In this document: piece by piece, positions 1 through 24,682 of the stretch
How positions within the stretch are numbered: the stretch's first letter is position 1
Layout of the letters: each line of letters begins with the position of its first letter
IMG/VR virus record: IMGVR_UViG_3300034063_000823
Span: 1 to 26,769 of that record
Direction: 5' to 3' (one strand)
Source: a virus
DNA: 26,769 nt
Position numbers and translations under genes: made by a program
Notes under the pieces: model-generated
Seen by the model: only the letters and a program-made list of their open reading frames with translations
Told to the model about the DNA's origin: nothing
Database searches by the model: none

Positions 1-2
1 TG

Positions 3-101
3 GGCGATCCATTCCAGGACAACCCCATCACAGTCAGACATCGTGCCGCTTTCCTGAAGCTGGCCGATGCCATCCAGCCAAGGGAGGAGCACAATGGCTG
101 A
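3..101 (+). CDS. C-terminal end of an unidentified upstream gene (partial)
   Basis: Reading frame 3 is open from the window edge to a TGA at 99-101 and encodes 32 residues starting GDPFQDNPITVRHRAAF. It overlaps the next gene by 8 nt in the form ATGGCTGA (94-101), the same arrangement seen at other junctions of this plus-strand cluster, which is the main reason to believe the frame is real. The visible tail is hydrophilic with a short helical stretch and no recognisable motif. Function unknown; the N-terminus is outside the window. Confidence 0.5.
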   Translation, partial: GDPFQDNPITVRHRAAFLKLADAIQPREEHNG

Positions 102-390
102 AGCCGCCTTTGTCTCCTACCTGCTCGATAACCGCCACCGGATCCCCAACCGGGCGATCATCAACTGCCTAGCTCTGGCTCAACTAAACCCAACTCCCAA
201 ACGCCGAGTCACCGCTAAGGGGCTAATTCCTATTTTCCAAAGCAACACGCAAGGCGGGATTAGATTTCTCATGAATGAACTCAGGCATTTTGGCCTGGTC
301 GACTTCGATTCAGGAAGACGCGGCACCCCCGGCTACCTGATCTGGCGGGTTGGGCCAGAGGAATGCCGCGGCCAGCAAGCCAACCACTGA
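94..390 (+). CDS. Small hypothetical protein, possible winged-helix DNA-binding protein
   Basis: Encodes 98 residues. I chose ATG 94 rather than the in-frame ATG 67 because a strong ribosome-binding site (GGGAGGAG) lies 6 nt upstream and because ATG 94 overlaps the preceding stop as ATGGCTGA. The protein has an N-terminal helical half (MAEAAFVSYLLDN, then NRAIINCLALAQLN) and a C-terminal half with the pattern GGIRFLMNELRHFGLVDF followed by a basic turn and GYLIWRV. That pattern resembles a recognition helix plus beta wing, so a DNA-binding role is plausible, but this is inferred from shape only. It is the last gene before leader copy A, which begins 2 nt after its stop codon. Function otherwise unknown. 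Confidence 0.7.
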   Translation: MAEAAFVSYLLDNRHRIPNRAIINCLALAQLNPTPKRRVTAKGLIPIFQSNTQGGIRFLMNELRHFGLVDFDSGRRGTPGYLIWRVGPEECRGQQANH

Positions 391-392
391 AT

Positions 393-490
393 TGTTACAG
401 AGTGTTGCGAGCCGCGGCCAATGAGCGGGAGGCGAGTGCATGATATGTGCATCGGGAGGCAACCGCCTCCTCCGGGGCTACAGCCCCTGG
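393..490 (+). promoter_or_regulatory. Leader/promoter module, copy A
   Basis: This stretch begins with TGTTACAGAGTGTT (393-406), followed 33 nt later by CATGATA (439-445) and, after 3 nt, GCATC (449-453). The same three blocks recur at identical spacing in copy B at 2348-2408. A perfect 6-bp hairpin follows, GGAGGC (455-460), loop AACC, GCCTCC (465-470). A second stem GGGGC/GCCCC (474-487, loop TACA) is found only in this copy. The element precedes the plus-strand genes at 564 and 913. CATGAT matches four of six positions of the sigma-70 -10 consensus, but no good -35 hexamer stands at 17 bp. A phage promoter plus structured 5' leader is the most economical reading; an operator is an alternative. 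Confidence 0.55.
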
Positions 491-563
491 CCCGCGGGGA
501 GCCTGCCAAGCAGTCGGCATTCCCTGCACACCACCCCATCCCACCGCATCCCCCGCCAACGCC

Positions 564-920
564 ATGTTCTACGTTCAATACGACAAAATCGCCAGCAGCT
601 TTGATCTCTGGTGTGACTACATAGACCCCAACGCCACCAGCAGCCGGGCGGACTTCGATGCCATGAGCCACGCCGACCGCGTGGCGTTGATCATCGAGAC
701 ATTCGGCCCAGATCCGGAGCGCGTCCCCACCGTCGACGAGATCCTGGCCGACACTGCCATCGCCAACGGCTGGCACCGCTGGGCCGTAGAAGGTGGCTCC
801 ATCACCGTCACTACCACCTTAATGCGCCAGCTCCTGGAGGCTGCTTACGACGCGGCCGATTCCGACTGGGTGGCGTTGGTTGATGCTGAGCAGCCGTGGG
901 AGGGACGGGCCGATGGTTGA
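564..920 (+). CDS. Hypothetical phage protein, 118 aa
   Basis: The start ATG 564 gives a protein beginning MFYVQYDKIASSFDLWCDYI. The frame is open further upstream, but that would place the start inside the leader hairpins and add a low-complexity Gly/Pro/Ala stretch, so I reject it. No Shine-Dalgarno sequence precedes ATG 564, so initiation may rely on the leader or be leader-independent as is common in cyanobacteria. The protein is acidic and predicted mostly helical, with no catalytic or metal-binding motif that I recognise. It resembles in style the small early proteins of picocyanobacterial prophages, which is an impression, not a search result. It overlaps the next gene by 8 nt (ATGGTTGA, 913-920). 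Confidence 0.75.
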   Translation: MFYVQYDKIASSFDLWCDYIDPNATSSRADFDAMSHADRVALIIETFGPDPERVPTVDEILADTAIANGWHRWAVEGGSITVTTTLMRQLLEAAYDAADSDWVALVDAEQPWEGRADG

Positions 921-1080
921 CCCCACCCCCGACCCCTGGGAAGCCCTCAGGGAAGCCCAGCAGGCTCTGATCCGGGCGGCAGGTCACATCCGTTCTCGCG
1001 AGGGCCACAGCGCTGCGGATCGTGCAGCGGCAAACGCTGCGGATCGTGCCCGTGCTGTTCTAGTGGAGATTAATGCCTGA
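913..1080 (+). CDS. Small helical hypothetical protein, 55 aa
   Basis: Start ATG 913 overlaps the stop of the preceding gene as ATGGTTGA and follows the purine-rich GGGAGGGACGGG. The product begins MVDPTPDPWEALREAQQALI and is almost entirely predicted alpha helix, alanine- and arginine-rich. Its C-terminal half contains an 8-residue tandem repeat (AADRAAAN then AADRARAV) encoded by a 15-nt direct repeat. Such a helix could mediate oligomerisation, but nothing shows a specific function. Its stop TGA (1078-1080) lies inside ATGCCTGA, so another short frame (1073-1213) starts here but runs into the oppositely oriented lysis cassette. Confidence 0.65.
   Translation: MVDPTPDPWEALREAQQALIRAAGHIRSREGHSAADRAAANAADRARAVLVEINA
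1011..1049 (+). repeat. Direct repeat of 15 nt, two copies at 24-nt period
   Basis: CGCTGCGGATCGTGC occurs at 1011-1025 and again at 1035-1049, inside the 55-aa gene, and yields the in-frame helical repeat AADRAxxx. The period of 24 nt keeps the frame, so it looks like a recent slippage duplication. Confidence 0.8.
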
Positions 1081-1213
1081 CCCCATCAAAACCGACCACC
1101 GCGGTAGGGGAACACCTGACGCAGAGCACGCAGCCCCAGCTGGGCGAGGCTGTTGCTCCGCAGAGAACTCATGCCTACCAGCTCAGAGGCAACGAACAGG
1201 CCGAACCCAATGA
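1073..1213 (+). pseudogene. Possible truncated gene start abutting the lysis cassette
   Basis: ATG 1073 overlaps the preceding stop as ATGCCTGA, identical to the genuine junction at 3656-3663 and to the terminase junction at 26565-26572. The first residues (MPDPIKTDHRG) also resemble the MPDPTEH start of the gene at 3656. After about 10 codons the frame runs antisense through the small membrane protein gene 1086-1244, becomes Cys/Arg/Pro-rich and loses protein-like character, ending at 1213 (46 codons). I infer that this is the stub of a gene whose remainder was replaced when the minus-strand lysis cassette was placed here. Chance overlap remains possible. Confidence 0.25.
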
Positions 1214-1244
1214 GTTCCAAGTGAGTGGGGGAAAGGTTAACCAT
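1086..1244 (-). CDS. Small membrane protein of the lysis cassette (second holin or antiholin candidate)
   Basis: Encodes 52 residues from ATG 1244, chosen over GTG 1277 because an AGGAG site sits at the right distance before ATG 1244. The GTG 1277 start would overlap the peptidase stop by 4 nt and add a polar MIESHQPQEHI extension, so it remains an alternative. Residues 6-25 (PTHLELIGFGLFVASELVGM) are amphipathic to hydrophobic and could span or lie on the membrane. The rest is basic (SLRSNSLAQLGLRALRQVF), as expected for a cytosolic tail. It is the third gene of a minus-strand cassette with the holin-like protein and the C39 peptidase, which suggests a role in lysis control or membrane permeabilisation. 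The gene ends convergently with the plus-strand cluster. Confidence 0.65.
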   Translation of the reverse strand: MVNLSPTHLELIGFGLFVASELVGMSSLRSNSLAQLGLRALRQVFPYRGGRF

Positions 1245-1273
1245 GATGTGCTCCTGTGGTTGATGGGATTCTA

Positions 1274-2011
1274 TCACCCGCTGGCCAAGATAGCCCAGCC
1301 GTTGCCGGGTGCGTAGCGGTAGCTGTTTCCACTTGGTACTACTTCCCAGCGGCGAGAGAAGTTCTTGTAGCTATAGCGTAGACCCGCCCCGTAGCTGTTG
1401 ACGTATCCGCCATTGACGAGATCCATTTCCCCAAACGGGTCATTGACGATTAAGGCGGTGTCGTCATAGCCGATTGCACAGATCCAATGGCCGTCGCCAT
1501 TGAGGCTGTTTAGATTCCCCTTGTGGACACAGCCAAGTGGCACGCGCCTGCCCCGATCGATCTCAGCCCTGACGTCATCAAGCGTGCAGGTTTGATCGAA
1601 TCGAGCCTGCACGCCAAAATATGCCAGCGCCTTGAGCTGCGCTGCCGCGTCGATGGTGTCGCCGTAGCGGAGCACGCGGCCCAGGTAGGTGTCGTCGCCG
1701 TTGACCCCCTTGAGGGTGCCAGGCTTGAGGGCCTCTAGCAGCATGGCGCAGGAGCTGCTGAAGCACATCCGCATCGCATGCTTGGTGCTGGAGTCTCGCT
1801 GGGAGTAGTAGGGCCCCGGCAGGGGGTTTTGCCGTACCGGTGCGGCCGGCTCCGCGGGGCTGCCATTGTCCCGCCACATTTCAGAGAACGCTTTGCGCTG
1901 CGCCTCGCTCATCCCCTGATCCAGGGCTGTGAGTGCTGCCAGCTCGTGGGGGGTGATATGAGCCTGGCGAACAAGCCACTCGGCAGCGGCGCGGACTGAG
2001 GTGTAAGCCAT
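1274..2011 (-). CDS. C39-like cysteine peptidase, probable phage endolysin
   Basis: Encodes 245 residues from ATG 2011, with GGAGGAT just upstream; the start overlaps the holin stop as TAATG. Residues 1-55 form a helical N-terminal region (AAAEWLVRQAHITPHELAAL). From about residue 68 it matches the Peptidase_C39_2 pattern: YYSQRD (68-73), the nucleophile motif MCFSSSCAM with Cys83, the histidine motif GDGHWICAIGYDD with His165, and the Asp motif NDPFG with Asp181. Bacterial C39 domains cleave peptides, and phage relatives in a lysis slot are thought to cut cell-wall peptide cross-links. Its position between two small membrane proteins supports an endolysin role. There is no signal peptide, so release would need a holin. 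A maturation protease or tail-associated wall hydrolase is less likely. Confidence 0.8.
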   Translation of the reverse strand: MAYTSVRAAAEWLVRQAHITPHELAALTALDQGMSEAQRKAFSEMWRDNGSPAEPAAPVRQNPLPGPYYSQRDSSTKHAMRMCFSSSCAMLLEALKPGTLKGVNGDDTYLGRVLRYGDTIDAAAQLKALAYFGVQARFDQTCTLDDVRAEIDRGRRVPLGCVHKGNLNSLNGDGHWICAIGYDDTALIVNDPFGEMDLVNGGYVNSYGAGLRYSYKNFSRRWEVVPSGNSYRYAPGNGWAILASG

Positions 2012-2298
2012 TAGATCCTCCGTAGGCGTGCGGGTGAAGGACGATCGGGACCGAACTCAACTCGTGGCGAGAGCACGGCCACGATGATCGGCATCACCAG
2101 ACTCAGCACGACAGCCAGGACGACGCCCTGAGCAATCCGCTGTTCTGCAAGGCCGAGCCTACGAAGTGCTTCCCCGATGTCACCTCGATTGATCCCCATC
2201 GTCTGGTGCAAGGCGTCCAGCCTGCCGTCCATCTTGCCCTCCAATACTCCAAGCCGGTGAAGAATGTCTCCATGCGAGACCCCATGTTCCTCCGCCAC
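2011..2298 (-). CDS. Holin-like protein (XhlA-type architecture)
   Basis: Encodes 95 residues. The start is GTG 2298; no in-frame ATG precedes it. Residues 1-50 are polar with heptad spacing of hydrophobic residues (DILHRLGVLEGKMDGRLDAL), as in a short coiled coil. Residues 57-77 (GVVLAVVLSLVMPIIVAVL) are a clear membrane span, and the tail is basic (RPSPARLRRI). Coiled coil plus one C-terminal span is the layout of XhlA-type holin accessory proteins. Direct overlap with the C39 peptidase start makes lysis the natural role, namely forming or regulating the membrane lesion that lets the peptidase reach the wall. Upstream lies the divergent control region shared with leader copy B. Confidence 0.7.
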   Translation of the reverse strand: MAEEHGVSHGDILHRLGVLEGKMDGRLDALHQTMGINRGDIGEALRRLGLAEQRIAQGVVLAVVLSLVMPIIVAVLSPRVEFGPDRPSPARLRRI

Positions 2299-2347
2299 AA
2301 AAAGCCCGCTGTTGCGGCCAGTGTAGCCGCCAGCAGCGTGGTTGCAA

Positions 2348-2426
2348 TGTTACAGAGTGTTAAGGATGGCAGCCAGTAGGCGGCAGGCTGATACATGATA
2401 CCCGCATCGGAGGCCACGGCTTCCGG
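2348..2426 (+). promoter_or_regulatory. Leader/promoter module, copy B
   Basis: TGTTACAGAGTGTT (2348-2361), CATGATA (2394-2400) and GCATC (2404-2408) repeat copy A at exactly the same spacing (33 nt, then 3 nt). The intervening 32 nt agree at roughly half of positions. A hairpin follows: GGAGGC (2409-2414), loop CACG, GCTTCC (2419-2424), closed further by C2408-G2425. Compared with copy A the right arm has T instead of C, turning a G-C into a G-U pair while keeping the stem. In this copy the first block reads TGTTA-CAGAG-TGTTA, a direct repeat at 10-bp period. It lies between the divergent lysis cassette and the plus-strand operon that ends in the sigma factor, about 70 nt upstream of the first candidate ORF. 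Confidence 0.55.
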
Positions 2427-2464
2427 GCTCCATCGATTCGTTCCCGTGACCGTCCCCCCCCTAG

Positions 2465-2520
2465 GGTCATCGCCTCCCATGGACCACAACAACACCCTCC
2501 CTCTGTGGTCATCGCCTCCC
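2465..2520 (+). repeat. Pair of 14-nt direct repeats in the leader of the second plus-strand operon
   Basis: GGTCATCGCCTCCC occurs at 2465-2478, immediately before ATG 2479, and again at 2507-2520 inside the 30-codon ORF that starts there. Spacing is 42 nt. Function unknown; it could be slippage or a binding site, since the CCTCC element is complementary to a Shine-Dalgarno sequence. Confidence 0.65.
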
Positions 2521-2571
2521 CCTGCTGAGCGGGAAAGCGCCATGCGCGCCGAGCTGGAGGGGGAGCCATGA
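2479..2571 (+). CDS. Possible 30-aa leader peptide or micro-gene
   Basis: ATG 2479 opens a 30-codon frame beginning MDHNNTLPLWSSPPPAERES. Its TGA (2569-2571) overlaps the next start as ATGA, and its last codons (GAG GGG GAG) contain the Shine-Dalgarno of the next gene. That overlap matches every other junction of this operon, which supports translation. The C-terminal part (ERESAMRAELEGEP) looks like a short amphipathic helix. It is the first frame after leader copy B and has no Shine-Dalgarno of its own. It could be a coupling leader peptide or a small protein; chance is not excluded. Confidence 0.4.
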   Translation: MDHNNTLPLWSSPPPAERESAMRAELEGEP

Positions 2572-2792
2572 GCAGAACAATCAAGGTTCGCATTGCTGTC
2601 TCCGTTGACTGTAATGGCGACTGGTCAGCAGCTGGATGGAGCGGCACCAGTTCTGAAGATTTTCACAGCTATACCCTTGACGCACTAGAGCCAGGGGAAA
2701 ACCGCTACTGGCTAGAGGCAGAGCTAGGTGTTCCCGAAACCGAAACCATCAACGCCACTGCCATCCCCGCCGAACCAAAAGGGCAGCCATGA
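2568..2792 (+). CDS. Small hypothetical protein, 74 aa
   Basis: ATG 2568 follows a strong GGAGGGGGAG site. The product begins MSRTIKVRIAVSVDCNGDW and appears mostly beta-strand, with alternating hydrophobic residues (KVRIAVSV) and an acidic, Trp-rich centre. Near the C-terminus is TETINATAIPAEP. No catalytic motif is visible. It overlaps the next gene as ATGA (2789-2792). I do not recognise a named family; it is probably one of the small accessory proteins common in cyanobacterial prophages. Confidence 0.75.
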   Translation: MSRTIKVRIAVSVDCNGDWSAAGWSGTSSEDFHSYTLDALEPGENRYWLEAELGVPETETINATAIPAEPKGQP

Positions 2793-3022
2793 GCCAGCAA
2801 AATGTCCGCGTTTCCTTTGGTGCCCTCTCCCCACCGATTGACGAACAACTCAGAGAGCAAGGACTGAAACTTGACATGGACCCCTTGCAGCGTGGCTATC
2901 TACAGCGCGATGCCGATGAGGTGACCCGCCTTCGTGTCCGTTGCATCCTCACCGAAGCCGAGTCAGACAAGGCCCGCAAGCGCATTTTCCAGATCATCAA
3001 AAAACAGGCTAAACCGCTATGA
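2789..3022 (+). CDS. Small hypothetical protein, 77 aa
   Basis: Starts at ATG 2789 in an ATGA overlap with the previous gene. The protein begins MSQQNVRVSFGALSPPIDEQ; the middle is charged (LQRGYLQRDADEVTRLRVRC) and the C-terminal helix (SDKARKRIFQIIKKQAKPL) is strongly basic. The basic end could bind nucleic acid, which is inference only. Its stop forms an ATGA overlap with the next start (3019-3022), so translation is probably coupled along the operon. Confidence 0.75.
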   Translation: MSQQNVRVSFGALSPPIDEQLREQGLKLDMDPLQRGYLQRDADEVTRLRVRCILTEAESDKARKRIFQIIKKQAKPL

Positions 3023-3225
3023 CCCGCCCCCTCTCCCCCGCCGCGCAGGCGGTGCATTGCCCGGTTTGCGGTGTTGCCGCTGAACCCAAAAGATACGGGC
3101 CGTTTTTTACACCAGATCCTGTGTATCGAGTAGCCATGACATGCCCTCACCATCATTGGCGCGGACGCATGTGCGAAACCACCGCAGACGCCATCGCCGC
3201 CGGGTGGGAGGGGGCCGATGGCTGA
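3019..3225 (+). CDS. Small putative zinc-binding protein, 68 aa
   Basis: Starts in an ATGA overlap at 3019. Contains CPVC (Cys14, Cys17), then after about 24 residues TCPHHHWRGRMC (Cys42, His44-46, Cys52), a spacing compatible with a treble-clef or zinc-ribbon site. No other domain is visible in 68 residues. Such proteins in phage accessory clusters are often DNA-binding or anti-host factors, but no role can be read here. The C-terminal region DAIAAGWEGADG is acidic. The stop overlaps the next micro-gene by 8 nt (ATGGCTGA, 3218-3225). Confidence 0.75.
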   Translation: MTRPLSPAAQAVHCPVCGVAAEPKRYGPFFTPDPVYRVAMTCPHHHWRGRMCETTADAIAAGWEGADG

Positions 3226-3307
3226 TCACTCGACTTGGGCCGATGTTGCAATGCAGTTGGTCTGGCTTCTTCCTTCCTGTTTGTTTATCTGGAGAACAAT
3301 GAAATGA
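3218..3307 (+). CDS. Micro-gene: 29-aa single-span membrane peptide
   Basis: ATG 3218 overlaps the previous stop as ATGGCTGA, follows the GGGAGGGGG purine tract, and ends at TGA 3305-3307, which overlaps the next start as ATGA (3304-3307). Both edges therefore fit the operon. The peptide begins MADHSTWADVAMQLVWLLPS and ends CLFIWRTMK: a short polar head, about 17 hydrophobic residues and a basic tail, typical of a tiny inner-membrane peptide with its C-terminus inside. Function is unknown; antiholin, superinfection exclusion or membrane-protein modulation are possibilities without specific support. Confidence 0.6.
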   Translation: MADHSTWADVAMQLVWLLPSCLFIWRTMK

Positions 3308-3663
3308 GCACCGACTTCCGCGCCTTGTGCGCTGAGCTACTGCCTCCGCTGGCTGAGTACGACGCCGCCAATCCGTATCACGACCACCGCGACCTGATCG
3401 CCCGCGCCCTCGCCGCCCTGGCCAAGCCACAACCACATGCGACGGCTTCCCAACCACCTGGCTACATCGACCCAAGGCCGACGGACAAAGAGATAAACGA
3501 GATGGTTGAGGCTCAGCGGCACCTAAGCGACTTAGGCGACCTCCGAATAGGAGTTGCACCAGAAGACGTGCCAGCTCTTGTTCACGATGCCCTTGCTCGA
3601 TGGGGCCGCACTACCACACCGCCGATCGCTGCTACCAACATGGAGGAACAGTCTGATGCCTGA
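3304..3663 (+). CDS. Hypothetical phage protein with DFRALCAELL N-terminus, 119 aa
   Basis: ATG 3304 is preceded by GGAGAA and forms an ATGA overlap with the 29-aa micro-gene. The N-terminus MSTDFRALCAELLPPLAEYD, followed by DLIARALAALAKPQP, is a pattern I associate with small proteins in cyanobacterial phages and prophages. The middle is Pro-rich (QPPGYIDPRPTDKEINEM). Helical segments at both ends suggest an adaptor-like protein, but there is no known biochemical role. The stop overlaps the next start by 8 nt as ATGCCTGA (3656-3663). Confidence 0.75.
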   Translation: MSTDFRALCAELLPPLAEYDAANPYHDHRDLIARALAALAKPQPHATASQPPGYIDPRPTDKEINEMVEAQRHLSDLGDLRIGVAPEDVPALVHDALARWGRTTTPPIAATNMEEQSDA

Positions 3664-3901
3664 TCCCACCGAACACGCTTGCCTGTCCTGCAAGTTCTCC
3701 AAATGGGAGCGCACCAAGGCAGGCAGCCTTCATCCATCCGGCGAAGGACGCTGCACATGGGAGGGATGGAAACACTTCATGTTACCTAAGTGCATGCACT
3801 ACACTTATTACTATGGCTCCAGTTGTCCCCCTCGACCGAACGGAGGTTATATTAACCGCAAGGAACCTATATCCTCTTGCCCGTGCTGGGAGGAGTTCTG
3901 A
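3656..3901 (+). CDS. Cysteine-rich small protein, putative metal-binding, 81 aa
   Basis: ATG 3656 overlaps the previous stop as ATGCCTGA; the longer frame from 3554 is a shadow of the upstream gene. Seven cysteines are present (9, 12, 33, 46, 57, 75, 77), including CLSC near the N-terminus and CPCWEEF at the C-terminus. Between them is an aromatic segment (MHYTYYYGSSC). This arrangement suggests a structural zinc or iron-sulfur site. The next gene starts in a TGATG overlap at its stop. Function unknown. Confidence 0.75.
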   Translation: MPDPTEHACLSCKFSKWERTKAGSLHPSGEGRCTWEGWKHFMLPKCMHYTYYYGSSCPPRPNGGYINRKEPISSCPCWEEF

Positions 3902-4302
3902 TGCCTGATATTATTCCAACCCCCGCCCAACTGGCTGCAATTGGAGCCGGTATTCAACGAGTAGGCCGCGCCTTCGTAGAACTGGAAGCGGAAATCCGGT
4001 ACTTTATTTATCGCCATCCTGAATGGGAACGAGCCGCCGCGAACCGAGAGGCGCAGTGGCATCGCGAGCATCAGAAGGCCATCCTCCGCCAGCTGCTGAA
4101 CCGCGATACCAGCCCCAGCGGTCGCAAGCGCCGCGCACGCCGCGCCGGGGGGAGATGGATCGAGGGGGGCTCCCCGCGGATCGAGGGGGGCTGGCAGCGG
4201 ATCGAGGGGGGCTCCACCCCGTCGATGCTTCGTGACGAGGTCAACAGTCCCTGGCTTGACCCCTCAGTAGGCCAACCGTGGGAGGATCAATCCAATGACT
4301 AA
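3901..4302 (+). CDS. Basic helical protein with three IEGG heptapeptide repeats, 133 aa
   Basis: ATG 3901 follows GGGAGGAG and overlaps the previous stop (TGATG). Residues 1-75 are helical with many charged residues (RVGRAFVELEAEIRYFIYRH, then EREAQWHREH-type sequence). A very basic patch GRKRRARRAGGR precedes three tandem heptads, IEGGSPR, IEGGWQR and IEGGSTP, starting at residue 87. The tail is acidic. The basic patch could bind nucleic acid or RNA polymerase, but this is conjecture. It overlaps the next micro-gene by 8 nt (ATGACTAA, 4295-4302), two genes before the sigma factor. Confidence 0.7.
   Translation: MPDIIPTPAQLAAIGAGIQRVGRAFVELEAEIRYFIYRHPEWERAAANREAQWHREHQKAILRQLLNRDTSPSGRKRRARRAGGRWIEGGSPRIEGGWQRIEGGSTPSMLRDEVNSPWLDPSVGQPWEDQSND
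4158..4220 (+). repeat. Three tandem 21-nt repeats
   Basis: GATCGAGGGGGGCT starts at 4158, 4179 and 4200, an exact 21-nt period that keeps the frame and encodes the IEGG heptads. The runs of six G in a row are prone to slippage, so copy number or frame may vary between relatives. Confidence 0.85.
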
Positions 4303-4444
4303 ACACCACAGCCAACTTTATTACGATGCCATCCGCATCCGTCGGGCACGCCGCGCCAGGGAATGGGCAGCACTTTACATCATAACCCTTTTGCTTTCTG
4401 TTTTCCCTTATCTTGTAATGCTTCTTTTTTTGTGGACCAGATGA
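4295..4444 (+). CDS. Micro-gene: 49-aa single-span membrane protein preceding the sigma factor
   Basis: ATG 4295 overlaps the previous stop as ATGACTAA and follows GGGAGGATC. Its TGA (4442-4444) overlaps the sigma-factor start as ATGA. The first 24 residues are polar and very basic (DAIRIRRARRAREW). Residues 27-47 (LYIITLLLSVFPYLVMLLFL) are an unmistakable membrane span, so the topology is probably N-terminus inside. Direct overlap with the sigma gene couples their translation. A membrane-bound partner or anti-sigma role is conceivable from context alone, with no sequence evidence. Confidence 0.65.
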   Translation: MTKHHSQLYYDAIRIRRARRAREWAALYIITLLLSVFPYLVMLLFLWTR

Positions 4445-5331
4445 ACAACACAGACACAACAAAATGGATGAAGGACCGCTTCGGCAGGGTTCCTCTTCTT
4501 ACCCCTGCGCAAGAAATAGAGCTAGCCCATGCAGTGCAGCAATGGATAGCGCTTGGTGATAACTACGAAAAGACAGCAGATACAGCAAAGATAGAGCGTC
4601 GCGGTAGGCGAGCCAGGGATAGGATTGTCGAGTCTAATCTAAGGCTAGCATTCAGTTACGTCTGTGAAAAGCATAGACACGCGCCGGTAGAAGATTTACA
4701 TGATATGTTTCAAGAGGCTACTTTAGGCCTTGCCCGTGCCGCCGAAAAGTTTGATCCAACAAAAGGATATAAGTTTAGCACTTATGCTTTCTGGTGGATC
4801 CGGCAAGCGGTAAACCGCTGGCTAGATACAAAGTCTCGAACGATCACACTACCATGCGGCAGCTTTGGCATTGCCATGAGGATCAAAGATGCAAAAAGGG
4901 AACTAAAAGAATTTGGAATACAGCCTACTGTTCAAGCCATAGCCACTCACCTAGACATAACGGAAAACAAGGTCGAGTCGATACTTGCCGCCCCTGTCGT
5001 TACCTACTCAATTGATCAGTTGGTCAGCGGTACCAATGAGCTAACCATCCTTGAAACCCTGTCTACCCCTTGTGAAGATGTTGATGAACCGCTTGCTTAC
5101 AGTACCTATCGGCTATCACTAATTGCCGAGAACATAGATGAGATACTGGGTATGTTAAATCCGGCAGAGGCTCGGATTCTCAGGGATTACTATGGAATCG
5201 GAGTAGCGCCACAGCAACAAGCGCAGATTGCAAGAACATACAATATCTCCGCTTCTGTTGTTCGGCAGCGATTAGCAAGCGCTCAGAAGAGATTTCGTGG
5301 TGCTGCCTTGCGATTTACACTGCCCGCCTAG
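4441..5331 (+). CDS. Phage-encoded divergent sigma-70 family RNA polymerase sigma factor
   Basis: Encodes 296 residues from ATG 4441, chosen because it overlaps the preceding micro-gene as ATGA; the longer frame from 4363 would read through that gene. Region 1.2 is at 9-34 (FGRVPLLTPAQEIELAHAVQ). Region 2 is at about 58-138, with KFDPTKGYKFSTYAFWWIRQ almost as in cyanobacterial group 2/3 sigma factors. Region 3 is at about 140-200 and region 4 is in the last 60 residues. The residue equivalent to E. coli sigma-70 Q437 is kept (Gln122) but the T440 equivalent is Asn125. In region 4.2 the R584/E585 equivalents are Ala271/Ser272, while the R588 equivalent (Arg275) remains. These are the residues that read the -10 and -35 elements, so altered promoter choice is likely. 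It should bind host core polymerase. The gene is visibly more AT-rich than its neighbours, suggesting separate acquisition. Its stop overlaps the late-operon end (CTAG). Confidence 0.92.
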   Translation: MNNTDTTKWMKDRFGRVPLLTPAQEIELAHAVQQWIALGDNYEKTADTAKIERRGRRARDRIVESNLRLAFSYVCEKHRHAPVEDLHDMFQEATLGLARAAEKFDPTKGYKFSTYAFWWIRQAVNRWLDTKSRTITLPCGSFGIAMRIKDAKRELKEFGIQPTVQAIATHLDITENKVESILAAPVVTYSIDQLVSGTNELTILETLSTPCEDVDEPLAYSTYRLSLIAENIDEILGMLNPAEARILRDYYGIGVAPQQQAQIARTYNISASVVRQRLASAQKRFRGAALRFTLPA

Positions 5332-7217
5332 AAGATCAGCGCTTTCCTTGTCCAGGATAGTGAAGCGCTTGCATCGATCATATTAAGCGATCCATTGTTG
5401 ACGGTTATCGATACACTCGCAACACCTGCCGAACCGGTTGTGCTTGTGATTGAATCAGGAGATCCGATGCCGTAGCTTGGCGTATAACTGCGCACACCCA
5501 TGGTGTTAGTGCAGCTACCTGTATCCAGGGTTGCGGCAGGGATATCATTTGCACCGGTACCCGCCGGTTGAGAAAGGCTAAAGCCGATCGCCGTTACTCT
5601 ACAGGTTGACTCAAAGCCGTCCAAAAGGTGAACGATCCCGCGTTCTTTTGTGATATCAATTCCATGCGCAGAGCCTTGGGTAAGCTGGCCGGATCGCAGT
5701 TCCCCGATGTTAGAACCAAAGCTTATTTCTGAATACCCAACAATAGAGCCGCCGTTGTTAGCGAGCTTTGTGATCTTCACTCCGCGCTGAATGCTGGAAG
5801 TTGACAAGTAGCCCTGTCCTGTTTCATTGGTTGCAAGGTGATAGATATTGCCAGAAGCATCCGCGGCGATGGCCATCCCGAACCCTTCTTCCCCAAGTAA
5901 CGTGCCGCCAGCAAAGCCAATCGAACCGGTATATTTGTACCTTGCGTTTACACTAAAGTCGGTAGCAATCTGCACCATTGTGTCTCTGTTGTGGCGGCAC
6001 AGATAGCTTCCATTCGGCAGCAAGGTGATCCCACCATCAAGGCAGCTGCCAGAGGAAGAAAAGACCGTGGTCTTATTGACGGTCGCACCATTGCTGGTGA
6101 TCTCCATCAACGTGGTCTGTGCCGCCTTGAGGATCATGGCGCCAGAGGGGAGAACCAACAGGCTGTCTCTGCCCGTGGGTTCGCGACCGCCTGTTGTGTT
6201 GTTTATACGGTAGTTGTTGCCACCGGTGTAACTGCCGTCCGCGAGGCTGATTTGCAGCAATGTAGGCGCCAGGGGATTACCAGAAACACCAGCAAGCCGA
6301 CTTGCTGTATAGACAATGACCTGTGAATCATTCAGCACTACGCGATACGCCCCAAGGATATTACCTGAATAATCCTTAGCCCAGAGTTGAGCACCCGATG
6401 CACTGAGCCTCCACCCCCTCATGGTTAGGACGCTTGTAATCCATGGTAGCTCATTATCATCAACAGTAAAAACAACACAACCGCCATCTGGCAATGGCAA
6501 AACCTGCGGCGCGTACGCATTCCTGGATGTAGTCAGCCTGCCAAATTCTGCAGACGTCCATCGCTGCCACAGCACAAGGCCATTGATGTCTCTCTTCACA
6601 ACAACAAGCCGCACCGTTGTTCCGCTTGTAGGCTCAAACCAGAAGACCTGGAAGGATGTTCCATCCGGGCCGGATACAGCCGAGCCAACGCTGCCGCCAT
6701 TGCCGATGGCAGATCGTTGTGCTGTCGCCAGGCGGGATGTCCACAGCTCAGGAATGGCGCCGGGGCCCACCAATCGAACTGTTCCGCCGACATGAATCAA
6801 CCCGGTGGCAGGTTGAACAATCAATGGATCAATGAAAGCAGGAAGCGGCGCCTGTACTAGCTCGACCTCTGCATCGTGAACACCGCCAGATTCGGAAGTA
6901 TAATCCATGATCCTGTAGGGGCCAGCGTAGCGCCAATAAAGGGCAGCATATTCAGCGGCATACTCTAACCCATCCAGTAATTCGGAAGATAACCTCCAAG
7001 CGTTATGCGTTTGCTCGCCATCCCAATGCGCTCGCACGGCGGCGATTGTTGTGGTTTTGGTATTGCGAAATGACAGCGAGAGTCTTGCGCCGGTAATGCG
7101 GTTGCCTGATTGGTAGTTCCTCAGGTTTCCAGCGATCGTGATGTGATCCACGCCCGGAAACGATCCAGGTTGGGGGGTGATGGTTGTGGGCCGGATGCCG
7201 GCAGGAAAATCAGCCAT
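5328..7217 (-). CDS. Distal tail protein with beta-rich (propeller-like) domain, 629 aa
   Basis: This is the last gene of the late operon; its start shares a base with the preceding stop (TAATG at 7217). Residues 1-130 (MADFPAGIRPTTITPQPGSF...) resemble in length and order the N-terminal domain of the neighbouring 231-aa tail protein, suggesting paralogous attachment domains. At 137-150 is ATGLIHVGGTVRLV, the same short motif repeated three times in that neighbour. From about 160 to 560 come repeated beta segments with turns such as VLPLPDGGCVVFTVDD, LLVLPSGAMILKAA and LLPNGSYLCRHN, typical of a propeller-like fold. I infer a receptor-contacting protein at the tail tip or side fibre. The gene ends convergently with the sigma gene in CTAG. 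Confidence 0.7.
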   Translation of the reverse strand: MADFPAGIRPTTITPQPGSFPGVDHITIAGNLRNYQSGNRITGARLSLSFRNTKTTTIAAVRAHWDGEQTHNAWRLSSELLDGLEYAAEYAALYWRYAGPYRIMDYTSESGGVHDAEVELVQAPLPAFIDPLIVQPATGLIHVGGTVRLVGPGAIPELWTSRLATAQRSAIGNGGSVGSAVSGPDGTSFQVFWFEPTSGTTVRLVVVKRDINGLVLWQRWTSAEFGRLTTSRNAYAPQVLPLPDGGCVVFTVDDNELPWITSVLTMRGWRLSASGAQLWAKDYSGNILGAYRVVLNDSQVIVYTASRLAGVSGNPLAPTLLQISLADGSYTGGNNYRINNTTGGREPTGRDSLLVLPSGAMILKAAQTTLMEITSNGATVNKTTVFSSSGSCLDGGITLLPNGSYLCRHNRDTMVQIATDFSVNARYKYTGSIGFAGGTLLGEEGFGMAIAADASGNIYHLATNETGQGYLSTSSIQRGVKITKLANNGGSIVGYSEISFGSNIGELRSGQLTQGSAHGIDITKERGIVHLLDGFESTCRVTAIGFSLSQPAGTGANDIPAATLDTGSCTNTMGVRSYTPSYGIGSPDSITSTTGSAGVASVSITVNNGSLNMIDASASLSWTRKALIF

Positions 7218-7912
7218 TACAACTCATCCGTTGAGATCGTAACGGTAGAACCTACACGAATCAAGCCTGTCTGCATGATGTGACCGGTTCTGACTTCGAT
7301 GTCGCCGCCAACATGAACGAGCCCTGCTTCGATGGCGTGCCCAGTTCTCAACTCAATCGAGCCGCCAACCCGGACCACGCCGGCAGGTAGCTCGGTTTCG
7401 GTTGGTGGTTCGATCGTGATCGTAGGCGCCACGATCGGTGGATCCGGAACCGGCTGCGGCAGTACCGGAGCGGTCACGACACCAGAGCCCGAGACAGCCG
7501 AGTAGATGGCCGCCACGGGGGCACCTACGGACGTGCCGGTGAGTGACGTGCCAAAGGCCCTGAGGCGCACTGTGATGCCTCCGATACCAGTGGAGAGGCG
7601 ATCGACGGCAGGTTGCTCCGCGTAGGACCAGAGCAGGCCCGCTGCGGCGATCGTGGCGGCTGCTGTGTGCCCGCACCATGCCGCGGCGGGAAGATCGAAT
7701 GGCTCTCGTTGCTGCGCGTGGTAGTGATCCCAGATCTGCTCCACCTCGCTGATGGGGCGCAAGGTGAAGGGGAGCTGTACTTCGGCGCCAACTTGTATGT
7801 TGCCAGTGCGGAACACGTAAGGCACGCCGCCAGGGCCGACGTAGGTTTCTGTTGAAACTGCGCCGAGCGTGTAACTGCGCTCGTCCGGCACGATGGCGGG
7901 GAATGTTGCCAT
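7217..7912 (-). CDS. Tail protein with C-terminal VGG repeats, 231 aa
   Basis: Starts at ATG 7912 in a TGATG overlap with the upstream gene. Residues 1-125 form a beta-rich domain (MATFPAIVPDERSYTLGAVS ... IWDHYHAQQREPFDL) that resembles tail proteins found near the tip genes of cyanophages; this is recognition by eye. Residues 150-175 are a Pro-rich linker. Residues 177-231 are three tandem copies of about 19 residues (AGVVRVGGSIELRTGHAIE, AGLVHVGGDIEVRTGHIMQ, then a shorter TGLIRVGSTVTIS). The repeats could form a small beta stack or a trimerisation element. Its position after the J-like protein supports a tip or fibre-attachment role. Confidence 0.65.
   Translation of the reverse strand: MATFPAIVPDERSYTLGAVSTETYVGPGGVPYVFRTGNIQVGAEVQLPFTLRPISEVEQIWDHYHAQQREPFDLPAAAWCGHTAAATIAAAGLLWSYAEQPAVDRLSTGIGGITVRLRAFGTSLTGTSVGAPVAAIYSAVSGSGVVTAPVLPQPVPDPPIVAPTITIEPPTETELPAGVVRVGGSIELRTGHAIEAGLVHVGGDIEVRTGHIMQTGLIRVGSTVTISTDEL
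7220..7384 (-). repeat. Three tandem ~57-nt units encoding VGG repeats
   Basis: Codes for residues 177-231 of the 231-aa tail protein: two full 19-residue units and a shortened third. A related single unit (GLIHVGGTVRL) occurs in the next gene downstream, at residues 139-149 of the 629-aa protein. Confidence 0.75.
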
Positions 7913-8364
7913 CAGATCGAAAGGCCAAGCGCTCCGTTGATCAGAGAAAAATCAATCTTGAATGGATAGGGAACTGTTACGGTTTGGCTGGCAGCAAAAG
8001 ACCAGTAACCCATCAGAAGTTGCTCTGATGCTGTTGTATTGCTAGATTGAGAGAATACATAGATATGCCGGAAGGGGCCAAAACCTGCACCGGTTGGCTC
8101 CCAGATTATGTCATTGCCAACAAGTAGCCATTTGTTGCCGCTTATGCTGCGGCTTGTGATGGTTAGCGCAGTGGGGCCAGGGTAGCCGTTGCCGGCACCG
8201 ATATCGACAAGGTCGCCGCGCTTTGTGTGTGTGACGCGGTTGGGCGTGGTGTTGGTAAGGCCAATACAGATGATATCATTTTGCATACTGATCGCACTGT
8301 TCTTCCCTAGTGCAAGCTGCGCCAGGAAGTTGTCGTACGGCTGAAAGGATGGATTTTCAGACAT
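7912..8364 (-). CDS. Phage structural protein of the distal tail, 150 aa
   Basis: The protein begins MSENPSFQPYDNFLAQLALG and contains DIICIGLTNTTPNRVTHTKRGD followed by IGAGNGYPGP. This order (short helix, then 'xIxxxLTNTxP', then 'GNGY') is typical of a family of small virion proteins encoded near tail-fibre genes, whose members often begin with N-x-F-x-x-x-L and a D-x-I/L-x-x-x-L strand. The rest is beta-rich (KWLLVGNDIIWEP, RHIYVFSQSS). It lies 15 nt after the J-like gene and overlaps the next gene. A tail-tip or decoration role is likely; the exact role is not known. Confidence 0.65.
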   Translation of the reverse strand: MSENPSFQPYDNFLAQLALGKNSAISMQNDIICIGLTNTTPNRVTHTKRGDLVDIGAGNGYPGPTALTITSRSISGNKWLLVGNDIIWEPTGAGFGPFRHIYVFSQSSNTTASEQLLMGYWSFAASQTVTVPYPFKIDFSLINGALGLSI

Positions 8365-8379
8365 GCGCTAGAAGGTGCT

Positions 8380-10416
8380 TTATGCAATTCTAGCAGCGGC
8401 AACAACCTGAGCAAGGAGGCTGGCACCAGTTTGATCCGTCGGATGGTGCTCCAGCTCCAGGGTCCAAGGGCCCAGGGGCGGGCCGCTGACGGCGAGGAGA
8501 TAGTAGTAGTAGCTCCAGTCGCCAGAACGGCCGACGGAGGGGTTGATCGCCTGGCTGAAGGCCACGATGCTGCCAGGCGCAAGGGCGGCAATCGCCAGCG
8601 AAGGCTCGACTTGGATGGTGGCTCGATGCTCGACGTAGCGCCGCCGGGCCAGCTCAAGGGCGGCCAGCCTGACCGCGTGCAACTCGCGGGTGACCCACTC
8701 GGATGCGTCAACCACCTCCACGGGGCTGCCATCCGATACCCCGTTGAACCTGAACGGGCCAGAGGCGCGGATGATGCCGACGTTGGTTTCTGGTTGCTCG
8801 CGCCAGCGGGGGAGGATGCCAACCTGCCAGCGGCGATCCTCAGCGGGGATGCCTTGTATCGATGGCGGGCCGATGATATTGGCTTCGTTGAAGATAGCAA
8901 CCGGAACAAGCGGGGCGGTGTTGAATTGATAGGTATCTGTGATCGGGATGGCGGGCCGCAAGCCAATTCTTCCGTTGTGGTTTGTTGGCCGCAACAGGAA
9001 CAGGGGGGCCATGACATCAAGCCATTCAGCGATGTTTGCGGGAGCAACGGCTAAGCCATCGCAGGTGATGGCATTGGCAGCATTGAATCTAGCCGAAAGG
9101 AGAAGGAAGTTATTGTCAATCTGTGAGGCATCTATTTCCTGCGACTGAAGCATGGCGTATTTTGCAAGATCTGGAAACAGGTTGCTGGAACCTGCTGTGC
9201 CTTCAATCAATCTTGGTACTGGTGTGCCATTGCGAGCGAAGACGTGAATATGCCGCCGCCAGCCTTCGTTTTCTGCCGGATATTGTTTTGTTACAGATAG
9301 TGTGGTGAGATCGGCATAACTCCCGCCGGTGCCGCAGTGGAGGGTAGCTTCGGGTTTGGGTGTAGGCTCGCTGTTTTCTTCCAGTATATTAAGAGTATAG
9401 GTTACACCGGCAAGGCCGCCGTATGCGCCGGTTTCATAATAAGCGCCAGTAGCATTTACTGTTTCAACTGCTGTGACGGTTTGTAAAAACCCACCTCTAA
9501 CGGTTTCATAAATATAAATACTAATGTTCCCATAAGGCTCTACTGACGCGGGCCGATTAAAGCTGTAGCTAGAGATATTTAAGTAACGCGCTTTGTCAGC
9601 CCTGGCATGTATTCCAGAGTTTTTAGCCGATAGAAGAAGGCCATAGGTGAGACCATTTTCATTGGCTTCATATAGTTCCACGTAACGGTAAGTGCCAGGG
9701 AAGGCAGCTTTATCATAATCAAGAAAGTTGTAAACCTGAAAGAAGCTTAAACTGTTGTACCATTCTGTTGATGGATTCTGTATCGATGTAGTACGGGGTA
9801 TACCGTGAAGAGTGGTACCCCCAGAAGATGGCCAGTCTATTTTTTTGTCGATGGTTATCTCAAATCTGGTTATGTAGTTTCCTGATGTGCTTACAGTAGT
9901 TTCGGCCATTGCTTCGGCGATAGCCGCGGCAAGACCAAGGGTAGAATACCCCCTAATCTCCAGCAAGGCGCCTCCTATTTTATCGCCGACGATAGTCTCC
10001 TGCCTGTTGCTTGTCGTTACAATAAATCTCTGTTGTATCAGGTTGCCCGGTGTCCATGTTCCTGCCCTTCCGTTATAGGCTTGTTGGTATTCTCCGATAA
10101 CAAGTGGGGTATCGCCTTGGTAGATGTCGCCAAGTTGAATCGTGGGCAATTGGCCAGCTGAGAGGACCAGCTGGTAAGAGGCAGTGACTTGGTTCAGGTT
10201 GTCGTTCTCGAATCTGCATTCTGACGCCAGGGGGCTCATCCACACACCGCCTGCGCCGTCTTCGCGCTTTCCAAACACCACCGGCACGGACCACCCAAGG
10301 TCCAGGCTGGTCTGAGCTACGTTCAGATCGTTCCCGCCGGTCTGGCTGTCAGACGCGGCCAGCAGGCGCCGATCAGCGGCCTGGAGGGGTGCAGCAGCGG
10401 CAGGGATCAGCAGCAT
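8380..10416 (-). CDS. Tail tip attachment protein, lambda gpJ-like position, 678 aa
   Basis: Starts at ATG 10416 in a TGATG overlap with the minor tail gene. The N-terminus after a short Ala-rich segment (LGWSVPVVFGKREDGAGGVW) and CRFENDNLNQVTASYQLVLS, then IQLGDIYQGDTPL, fits the first hub domain of central tail-tip proteins. The C-terminal third contains RHNGRIGLRPAI-type and EARRRYVEH/IALAPGSIVAF-type segments (ELARRRYVEHRATIQVEPSL, ALAPGSIVAFSQ), the features expected of gpJ/phage-tail_3 hub domains. The middle (roughly residues 110-380) is richer in A/T-ending codons and in Tyr/Asn, hinting at mosaic origin. It is shorter than lambda gpJ, and receptor binding may be delegated to the three downstream proteins. 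Confidence 0.75.
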   Translation of the reverse strand: MLLIPAAAAPLQAADRRLLAASDSQTGGNDLNVAQTSLDLGWSVPVVFGKREDGAGGVWMSPLASECRFENDNLNQVTASYQLVLSAGQLPTIQLGDIYQGDTPLVIGEYQQAYNGRAGTWTPGNLIQQRFIVTTSNRQETIVGDKIGGALLEIRGYSTLGLAAAIAEAMAETTVSTSGNYITRFEITIDKKIDWPSSGGTTLHGIPRTTSIQNPSTEWYNSLSFFQVYNFLDYDKAAFPGTYRYVELYEANENGLTYGLLLSAKNSGIHARADKARYLNISSYSFNRPASVEPYGNISIYIYETVRGGFLQTVTAVETVNATGAYYETGAYGGLAGVTYTLNILEENSEPTPKPEATLHCGTGGSYADLTTLSVTKQYPAENEGWRRHIHVFARNGTPVPRLIEGTAGSSNLFPDLAKYAMLQSQEIDASQIDNNFLLLSARFNAANAITCDGLAVAPANIAEWLDVMAPLFLLRPTNHNGRIGLRPAIPITDTYQFNTAPLVPVAIFNEANIIGPPSIQGIPAEDRRWQVGILPRWREQPETNVGIIRASGPFRFNGVSDGSPVEVVDASEWVTRELHAVRLAALELARRRYVEHRATIQVEPSLAIAALAPGSIVAFSQAINPSVGRSGDWSYYYYLLAVSGPPLGPWTLELEHHPTDQTGASLLAQVVAAARIA

Positions 10417-22830: not shown

Positions 22831-24431
22831 GATCTTACGGTAGCGGATTGGTCAAGCATAGAGCCATCCTCTTCCTCGTCATCCTCCTCAAGAGGATCAA
22901 CAGGATCAACAGGATCAGGCTGAGGGGCCACTGGTTGTGTTTCAAGCATCAGACCACTCTCACGCCTTAGCCTTACTTCCCGAGAACGTTGATGGGTCTT
23001 CTCCTCCCAGTCGCCACCGTCATAAGCCACCGTTTCCTCCGCTTGAGTGGTTATACCAACCTCCATACGTTTCTCTGCTGCAAGTGCTTCTTTCAGCGGA
23101 TCCAAGGCGCCAGGGCCGTCGCCACCCCAATTTGAGCCGCACCAAGCTTCGCGTACAAATGGATCAGAGAAAAACCCTGGAGCAACAATAATCCCCAATG
23201 CAACCGCGTCAGCAAGCCATTCTTCATAAATTGGTTGACTCCAATTTGACACAAACCAAACACGTTCAATCTTCCATGTATGGTAAGCATCCAGTAATGC
23301 GGCCCTGCTGGCGGAATAGCTAGAATTAAAAGCCTTGGTTAATACTTCTTTCGGCATGTTTAGGGCTATGCTTATCATGTTAAGCATAGCCCCGAAGAAA
23401 CCTTCAAACTGCGGATTAGGTCTTCCCGGTGTTGGAGAAGTAATGCTTTCACCAGGTAGTAACCGCACGGTCTTCCCGCTGTTTAACCCACCGTCATATT
23501 TTGCGGCTTGAGCCACATAGGCTTCCTTCATTTCATCGTTATATACATCCTGAAATGCCGCGCCATCCATCATGGCAAACACTGCTAGCGCTGCACTGTT
23601 GACAGCCGCATCTACTTCTGCATCGCTATATCGCGTGAGCTGCTTTAGTGTTGCAATAATTGGCCCCAGGCAAGGGCGGCCACGGGTTTGCCCCGGTCGG
23701 TGCATCTTTTTTAAGTGCAGCACGTTGCGCCGACCTGATTCGGAATAGAATGGTATTTGCTGCCATGTATTACCAGAGTATTGTTTTACGTTGCCAGGGT
23801 GGTGTTTTGCTAGATGGATGCTTGTTGGCTCACCATCTGCCGCTCGTTCAATCCCAGACACCAAGGTGCTAGTATCCATTTTGCCGTTCGGGTTGCAAAC
23901 TCGATCGGCTTCTATTAGTTGAATCGCCAAGCGAAACGGCCAGTTGCTGCGTTTTTTGTTTACCAATAGCGAGAACACATCACCGCTTTCATCATGCGAA
24001 CGCAGAGCTAAACTTTGCAGCCCGTAGAAATCCAACTCGCGTGTTACGTCTGCAAACCTTGATCGAGCCCACATGTGAAAACGCCTTTCGGCTTTTGATT
24101 GCCACTCTGATGCCTGGTCTTCTGACAATCCAAGCTCATCCGCGTTGATCCTGCTTTGCAGTGTTAAACCGGTTCCAATGATTTTACTAGAACGTGTCTG
24201 TATTGCGCCCGCTGCAACCGGAGCAGTTCGCACAAGATCACGCGAGAATGCTCTTTCATCACCCGTTTGCCATGTTGCTTCGCTATCGGCATCATAAGAA
24301 AATGGGCGCCAATTGCTAAACCTAAGTTGGTTTGCAATATCACTTGTGCCAAGAGACAGGCCTGATCCGACCACTGCCAATGGCTCAGAAGCGGGTGCGC
24401 CGGGTTTTTGTTTTCGTTTGATTTTGCCCAT
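22827..24431 (-). CDS. Portal protein, lambda gpB family, 534 aa
   Basis: I choose ATG 24431, which overlaps the connector stop (TGATG), over a TTG two codons upstream. The conserved opening RFSNWRPFSYDADSEATWQT and AGAIQTRSSKIIGTGLTLQS is characteristic of lambda-type portals; RRNVLHLKKMHRPGQTRGRP, then PNPQFEGFFGAMLNMISIAL and MPKEVLTKAFNSSYSASRAA, match the stem and crown part. The C-terminus is very acidic (LEEDDEEEDGSML) with two PVDP units. The protein forms the dodecameric gate at one capsid vertex through which the terminase pumps DNA. Length agrees with the family (about 530). Confidence 0.93.
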   Translation of the reverse strand: MGKIKRKQKPGAPASEPLAVVGSGLSLGTSDIANQLRFSNWRPFSYDADSEATWQTGDERAFSRDLVRTAPVAAGAIQTRSSKIIGTGLTLQSRINADELGLSEDQASEWQSKAERRFHMWARSRFADVTRELDFYGLQSLALRSHDESGDVFSLLVNKKRSNWPFRLAIQLIEADRVCNPNGKMDTSTLVSGIERAADGEPTSIHLAKHHPGNVKQYSGNTWQQIPFYSESGRRNVLHLKKMHRPGQTRGRPCLGPIIATLKQLTRYSDAEVDAAVNSAALAVFAMMDGAAFQDVYNDEMKEAYVAQAAKYDGGLNSGKTVRLLPGESITSPTPGRPNPQFEGFFGAMLNMISIALNMPKEVLTKAFNSSYSASRAALLDAYHTWKIERVWFVSNWSQPIYEEWLADAVALGIIVAPGFFSDPFVREAWCGSNWGGDGPGALDPLKEALAAEKRMEVGITTQAEETVAYDGGDWEEKTHQRSREVRLRRESGLMLETQPVAPQPDPVDPVDPLEEDDEEEDGSMLDQSATVRS

Positions 24432-24673
24432 CACCAAAGCGGACGCGGTGTAATTGATCTGCGTCCATTACCTGAAGTGCCGATACTCAAGTTCTCTACT
24501 TGCTGTGTCCAGTATTCAATGCCTTTTCGGATTTCAGCCAAATCAGCTCGTCTCATTGACCGGAAGCCATCACCCTGGCCAAAGCTATACTGTTGCCCAC
24601 TTAAAACAGCAGCTTCCGCATCAAGGTACTGCGTCAGCCGCGCTCGGGCGGTCTCCAGGGTGATGGCGCTCAT
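24431..24673 (-). CDS. Head-tail connector, gpW-like (DUF6148), 80 aa
   Basis: ATG 24673 follows the terminase stop by 9 nt. The protein is a helical hairpin: TLETARARLTQYLDAEAAVL, SGQQYSFGQGDGFRSM, RRADLAEIRKGIEYWTQQVE. The pattern 'YLDAEAAVLSGQ.Y..........RADLAEIRKGI.YW...V' is characteristic of DUF6148/gpW-type proteins that sit between terminase and portal genes. It should bind beneath the portal after packaging and form part of the neck. The C-terminal 20 residues are basic and probably disordered. Confidence 0.85.
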   Translation of the reverse strand: MSAITLETARARLTQYLDAEAAVLSGQQYSFGQGDGFRSMRRADLAEIRKGIEYWTQQVENLSIGTSGNGRRSITPRPLW

Positions 24674-24682
24674 GCAACCATC

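Follow-up and report, generated by a model that had tools for sequence, protein, structure and literature searches.

The virus DNA analysed here (the window, a complete IMG/VR virus record of 26,769 bases) encodes a full-length sigma-70 family factor that retains the residues expected to bind core RNA polymerase and melt the -10 element, and carries changed residues at positions tied in E. coli to reading of the -12 base, the extended -10 and the -35 element. This factor probably directs the host's polymerase to start sites of the virus itself. With moderate confidence, we interpret it as a working member of a cyanosiphovirus sigma family that would bind core and melt -10 DNA, has lost the reading of canonical -35 and TG-extended -10 elements, and thereby would redirect RNA polymerase to phage promoters. 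The features discussed are collected in Table 1.

Table 1. Features of the window in and around the sigma gene (positions are those of the window; E. coli residues are RpoD equivalents).
Feature	Position	Strand	Basis or remark
Repeated leader ahead of the run ending in sigma; candidate promoter region	2343..2410	+	TGTTACAGAGTGTT and, 32 nt further, the -10-like hexamer CATGAT; function putative
49-aa small ORF, stop overlapping sigma start (ATGA)	4295..4444	+	Open also in relative L002; one hydrophobic stretch
Sigma-70 family factor, 296 aa	4441..5331	+	ORF exact; domain and family matches
Region 1.2, residues 15-34	4483..4542	+	Pfam PF00140
Region 2, residues 63-133	4627..4839	+	Pfam PF04542; core-contact Q91/E92 and -10 residues Y115, W118, W119, Q122, R126 retained
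N125 codon, at T440 (-12 contact)	4813..4815	+	Residue alignment
Codons 140-143; G140/G143 at H455/E458 (extended -10 contacts)	4858..4869	+	Residue alignment
Region 3, residues 147-208	4879..5064	+	Pfam PF04539
Region 4, residues 236-284	5146..5292	+	Pfam PF04545; helix-turn-helix intact in model
Codons A271, S272, V273, at R584, E585, R586 (-35 reading helix)	5251..5259	+	Alignment; same in L002
Final late (tail) gene, converging on sigma and overlapping its stop by 4 nt	5328..7217	-	

All four of the regions that a preliminary description had claimed, 1.2 to 4, scored above their Pfam gathering cut-offs, and the cyanobacterial type of region 2 was borne out as well. The best PHROG match was phrog_351, RNA polymerase sigma factor (E 2.4e-48), which 8/8 members of A3 also matched. 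Among NCBIfam models the best match was TIGR02997, the cyanobacterial RpoD/SigA family, but the score of 189.5 bits lies below its curated cut-off of 384.5. Of the 29 matches that reach 280 bits or more in five cyanobacterial genomes, 7 also fall short of this cut-off. The label "group 2-like" in the preliminary description therefore fits the architecture only: the TIGR02997 score is missed and most conserved promoter-reading residues are absent. The start of the gene is supported by the overlap with the 49-aa ORF, and given that ORF an alternative start at 4363 is less likely. The small product is basic, and a role as regulatory partner of the sigma factor is conceivable. An AlphaFold2 model from a 55-row alignment reached a mean pLDDT of 88.8, and residues 261-290, which cover region 4.2, had block means of 93-98; the pTM of 0.51 makes the relative placement of domains unreliable. 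By Foldseek, the model best matched the principal sigma chains in solved transcription initiation complexes (best E 4.6e-13), at a TM of about 0.4 as expected of a multidomain chain.

Residues were mapped by protein alignment to E. coli K-12 RpoD. The pairing of N125 with T440 and of A271/S272 with R584/E585, proposed earlier as evidence of altered promoter contacts, was recovered in this alignment, which also places V273 at R586. The extended -10 pair H455/E458, absent from the preliminary description, is replaced by G140/G143, and T136 and F117 stand for R451 and T432. Retained are the equivalents of the core-contact pair Q406/E407, of Y430, W433/W434, Q437 and R441, and of R436. R275/Q276 correspond to R588/Q589, and some -35 contact may thus remain. 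In E. coli, R584A moves the -31 preference to A:T, E585Q loosens -33, T440I suppresses a T-to-C change at -12 and H455/E458 act at -14, according to excerpts of PMC2613000. Thus the sites tied in E. coli to the -35, extended -10 and -12 elements are changed in the window sigma, and the melting sites and Q437 are intact.

On our preferred reading, conserved region 2 would bind host core RNA polymerase, and the retained aromatics together with the Q437/R441 equivalents would open -10-like DNA. Owing to A/S/V at R584/E585/R586 and G/G at H455/E458, canonical -35 (TTGACA) and TG-extended -10 elements would no longer be read as they are by host SigA. These changed promoter readers would in turn move polymerase to phage promoters through altered -12, extended -10 and -35 contacts.

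The gene is maintained and is not an assembly join. A second contig, IMGVR_UViG_3300042560_002043 (45.4 kb; loci L002, L110 and L190), matches the window collinearly over 7.5 kb at 93.9% across the sigma gene, and its sigma (L002) is 94% identical to that of the window. The possibility, raised in the preliminary description, that host and phage DNA had been joined in assembly was accordingly not borne out. Pairwise dN/dS between the two sigma genes was 0.17 over 888 bases and 0.10 in residues 230-296; the proteins differ at 20 amino acids, none of which lies in residues 267-295, the region 4.2 helix. Many IMG/VR records are fragmentary, and the sigmas of viral contigs L326, L219, L221 and L235, as well as that of MaAM05, fall in cellular clades of a 138-row tree; both points speak for a fragment or join. 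Against the collinear record, the purifying selection, the ATGA overlap with the upstream ORF and the position of homologous sigmas opposite late genes in four published phages, we regard a pseudogene, host gene fragment or assembly join as very improbable.

A different concern is whether the factor redirects transcription or simply boosts it. As an ordinary group 2-like sigma it would use host-like -10 promoters, need no -35 and tolerate drift of region 4.2. Its -10 residues are indeed retained, and N also occupies the T440 place in a clade of cellular cyanobacterial sigmas that have an SREY helix and retain R584/E585 (loci L371, L385, L386, L047 and L077). Because of this clade, T440N alone is weak evidence, and we rejected it as a hallmark. 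Many cyanobacterial promoters have weak -35 elements, and a change in the -35 helix could accordingly matter less. However, L002 shows no difference in residues 267-295, and purifying selection acts on region 4. In addition, phages of the S-LBS1 type share a helix type of their own (mean identity 59% within the clade, compared with 26.9% when all phage clusters are taken), a pattern that fits maintained new functions better than simple decay. Collectively, these data lead us to consider a group 2-like booster rather unlikely.

The case for altered specificity extends beyond the window. We gathered 321 sigma proteins from phage, five cyanobacterial genomes and other genomes into 191 clusters at 88% identity, and compared 85 phage clusters, the window's included, with 41 cellular cyanobacterial group 1/2 clusters. 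L018 and L228, which are cut, and the poorly aligned L408 (P-SS2) were left out of the phage set, whereas MaAM05 and the four viral-contig clusters within cellular clades were retained in it; the cell set omits seven cyanobacterial-genome loci (four group 3 and the odd L394, L399 and L400) and all non-cyanobacterial loci. R584 followed by E or D at 585 was found in 34/85 phage versus 39/41 cellular clusters. Neither state was kept in 35/85 phage versus 2/41 cellular clusters (Fisher p 5e-10, a value that ignores shared descent). Taken singly, R584, E585, H455 and T440 were present in 45, 33, 25 and 27 of the 85 phage clusters and in 39, 38, 36 and 36 of the 41 cellular clusters; E458 was retained in 39 of the latter, and R588 in 39/85 phage versus 40/41 cellular clusters. 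At R584, E585, H455 and E458 the window sigma has A, S, G and G. By comparison, Q437, Y430 and W434 were invariant in both sets (85/85 phage clusters). N at 440 occurred in 16 phage clusters, 12 of them without R584, and E407, kept in the window, was replaced by A in 23/85. On the 138-row tree, which was built without region 4, at least 12 changes between canonical and changed states at 584/585 are needed. Altered promoter readers are thus a family trend, and the altered-specificity reading of the window sigma is a reasonable one that stands on this family-wide pattern.

These patterns raise a broader, more tentative possibility: that cyanosiphovirus sigmas form a natural series in which core binding and melting are fixed and the parts that read the -12, extended -10 and -35 elements can vary freely, with lineage-specific, mutually orthogonal late promoters. 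The window sigma would be an extreme case that may fire promoters lacking a canonical -35. Among the open-licence full texts listed by our literature searches, as judged by titles and the beginnings of abstracts, none describes a fixed melting part with a changing promoter reader in such sigmas. This pairing is the aspect that we consider worth following. If our reading is right, these phages offer ready-made sigmas with distinct promoter specificity that are compatible with cyanobacterial RNA polymerase, tools to dissect how promoter reading is split among regions 2.4, 3.0 and 4.2, and orthogonal switches in cyanobacteria. The reading would also bear on late-gene activation in lambda-like cyanophages. 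Two phage lineages (L195/L196 and L204) have two nearby sigma genes; in L196, 5 nt separate a first gene with the canonical SRER helix from a second one whose helix is changed, an arrangement that hints at a sigma cascade.

The descent of the window sigma was examined in three trees, and in none did it fall inside one host sigma clade, the placement that the preliminary description would have taken as contrary evidence. In the 138-row tree it has a long branch of 2.12, and its branch is long in the 40-row tree too; in the former it stands beside 11 other phage rows (support 82). In a realigned 74-row tree that included L002, its neighbour is a fork comprising 33 phage rows and 16 cellular ones. 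Constraining it to 12 S-LBS1-type rows, although the free tree had it elsewhere, raised the likelihood by 11.56 units over that tree (p-AU 0.739). Five placements with cellular clades were 1.2 to 19.1 units worse than the free tree, at p-AU values of 0.116-0.47 that do not reject them. The careful 40-row tree contained 12 cellular rows, all of which fell together with 12 phage rows to one side of a branch with support 81/99; on the far side was the window sigma, next to S-LBS1-type phages at weak support (23/69). The odd sigma genes of Cyanobium CZS48M and Synechococcus BO 8801 (L394, L399 and L400) group with two phage sigmas in the 138-row tree (support 86) and are perhaps prophage genes.

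Relatives are plentiful. A tblastn search with the window sigma returned 137 phage records (65 named Vibrio), of which 35 span 80% or more of the query in a single place, all at less than 60% identity; the best, S-LBS1, was 35.7% identical over 97%. Scanning IMG/VR with the window protein alone confirmed 20 of 30 stretches. With an alignment as query, at least 557 of 599 stretches encode relatives, and with the S-LBS1 protein at least 598 of 600; in each case 80 were kept. Homologous genes are present in the cyanosiphoviruses S-CBS1, S-CBS3, S-LBS1 and KBS-S-2A (about 31-36% identity), where they have the same domain set as the window sigma and are annotated as RNA polymerase sigma factors. 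Freshwater S-LBS1 resembles the window in having a changed region 4.2 (STRALESR), but its substitutions differ and A takes the place of E407. S-CBS1 and KBS-S-2A keep SRER and S-CBS3 (rpsD4) has SREA, unlike the window. Cellular group 1/2 sigmas (SigA to SigE type, TIGR02997) share region 2 and the architecture with the window sigma, whose 4.2 and 3.0 contact residues are not of that type. Its best genome matches are L030-L032 of picocyanobacteria at 36-37% identity, with L030 in a cellular clade.

The T4 gp55-type factor of cyanomyoviruses is a reduced late sigma without a region 4 of the window type. As a phage late sigma it provides a working analogy, from which the window sigma differs by its PF04545 domain and its possession of all four regions. 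A full-length sigma in lambda-like cyanophages is already known, and the statement in the preliminary description that it is much less usual there is wrong. In addition to the four phages above, P-SS2 encodes a group 2 and a group 3 sigma (PMC2784084, in part). The parts of the S-LBS1 paper and the KBS2A announcement available to us mention a divergent rpoD (PMC6157547) and RpoD (PMC3751600), respectively, and a review, likewise available in part, counts RpoD/RpoS-type sigma factors in 65/153 cyanophage genomes (PMC10452541). The group 2 sigma of P-SS2 (ORF113) is, like the window's, siphovirus-encoded; excerpts of its description propose that it acts on host RNA polymerase and show that the authors expected canonical promoters. 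It is very divergent (branch of 4.06 changes per column). A more distant parallel comes from phiEco32 and 7-11, whose sigma redirects host RNA polymerase and in which the sigma gene is preceded by phage promoters, as stated in sections of PMC4331800. These are other phages with other hosts, and the same sections list predicted phage promoters and a predicted anti-sigma for 7-11.

The window sigma might instead act chiefly by competing with or mimicking host sigmas, reprogramming host metabolism rather than serving phage promoters. Expression of phage sigmas is reported by the review PMC10452541 to have raised growth of Synechococcus elongatus PCC 7942, and the S-CBS3 RpsD4 protein to have increased acetyl-CoA 1.9-fold in S. 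elongatus. Yet S-CBS3 keeps R584/E585 and the window sigma does not, such that the overlap of the latter with host targets should be smaller. As the main role of the window sigma, metabolic reprogramming is improbable.

Gene order is consistent with a late role for the factor. The window carries a lambda gpA-type terminase, portal, head protease, major head protein, tape measure and C39-type endolysin. Its late genes are on the minus strand, the last lying tail-to-tail with sigma. The preliminary description of sigma as the last gene of the operon opposite the late genes holds insofar as it sits at the end of a plus-strand run facing them; that run begins only at about 2568, since the endolysin gene (1274-2011) and an ORF (2011-2298), both on the minus strand, break it. 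The sigma factor would be made last from this run, which the leader at 2343-2410 precedes, and its likeliest targets would be late-gene promoters on the opposite strand, leading to late transcription. In S-CBS1, S-CBS3, S-LBS1 and KBS-S-2A, sigma is likewise found near the end of the late genes but on the other strand, and the endolysin gene comes 0.4-1.5 kb before it; in the window the endolysin gene is located elsewhere. S-CBS3 has four small genes after sigma on its strand.

We compared synteny over the 85 phage clusters with mechanical ORF calls of at least 90 aa, a crude procedure that disagrees with the S-LBS1 annotation upstream of sigma. Of 78 clusters with an ORF downstream of sigma, the strand changes at the first ORF in 52 and at the second in 21 more, so that 73/78 switch within two ORFs. 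Among the 81 clusters with an ORF upstream, the nearest one was on the same strand in 57/81 and on the other strand in 24/81; in S-LBS1 the annotated genes directly upstream (23040-24906) are on the other strand. Facing the late genes is a general feature of these sigma genes; a place behind a long early run, which the window sigma has, is not. Elsewhere in the window, ORF 564-917 matches Pfam AcrF31 (anti-CRISPR F31) over residues 6-48 at 42.7 bits (cut-off 27), and three 21-nt tandem repeats lie at 4157-4219 within ORF 3901-4302.

Phage promoters were sought in several places. A consensus promoter scan of window positions 1-9000 gave 4 sites against 4.6 expected, which is chance level. No shared -35/-10 motif was seen in intergenic DNA of relative G001 read by eye, or in the DNA upstream of terS in L110, L179, L158 and L155, which showed cos-like and terminase-binding-like repeats only; the DNA upstream of the terminase genes falls outside the window. 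Among the open-licence texts listed by our searches, none that maps late promoters of lambda-like cyanophages was found. The leader of Table 1 recurs at 388-455 and in G001 near 22115 and 28667. All copies share TGTTACAGAGTGTT, roughly a TTAC-N6-TTGC direct repeat, which in 4/4 exact copies precedes a -10-like hexamer (CATGAT or GATAAT) by 31-32 nt with no TTGACA between. This distance is too great for TGTTACAGAGTGTT to be the -35 of a sigma promoter, and we rejected that assignment. The layout resembles that of an activator-dependent promoter, with TGTTACAGAGTGTT as candidate activator site. An HLR1/RpaB site was not supported either: 4 matches to the strict pattern with at most 3 mismatches were found against 2.08 expected, and 18/100 shuffles scored as high, which is not significant.

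A GGGTCCTYC stretch, which may be a cos site, lies upstream of the terminase genes at about 9270-9300 in L110 and in the relatives L155, L158, L179 and L026. Of 80 terL loci, 24 begin 670-763 bases before terL, about at this stretch. The repeats near it vary by phage (TTGAACC, TGTCAGAAGG, GTTTAAG and GGTTAA). Iteron-like repeats, likely marking a replication origin, directly follow the primase gene in L110 (GGTAGGGCA, 7490-7760) and in S-LBS1 (GGTTAGGCAG, L027 34230-34641).
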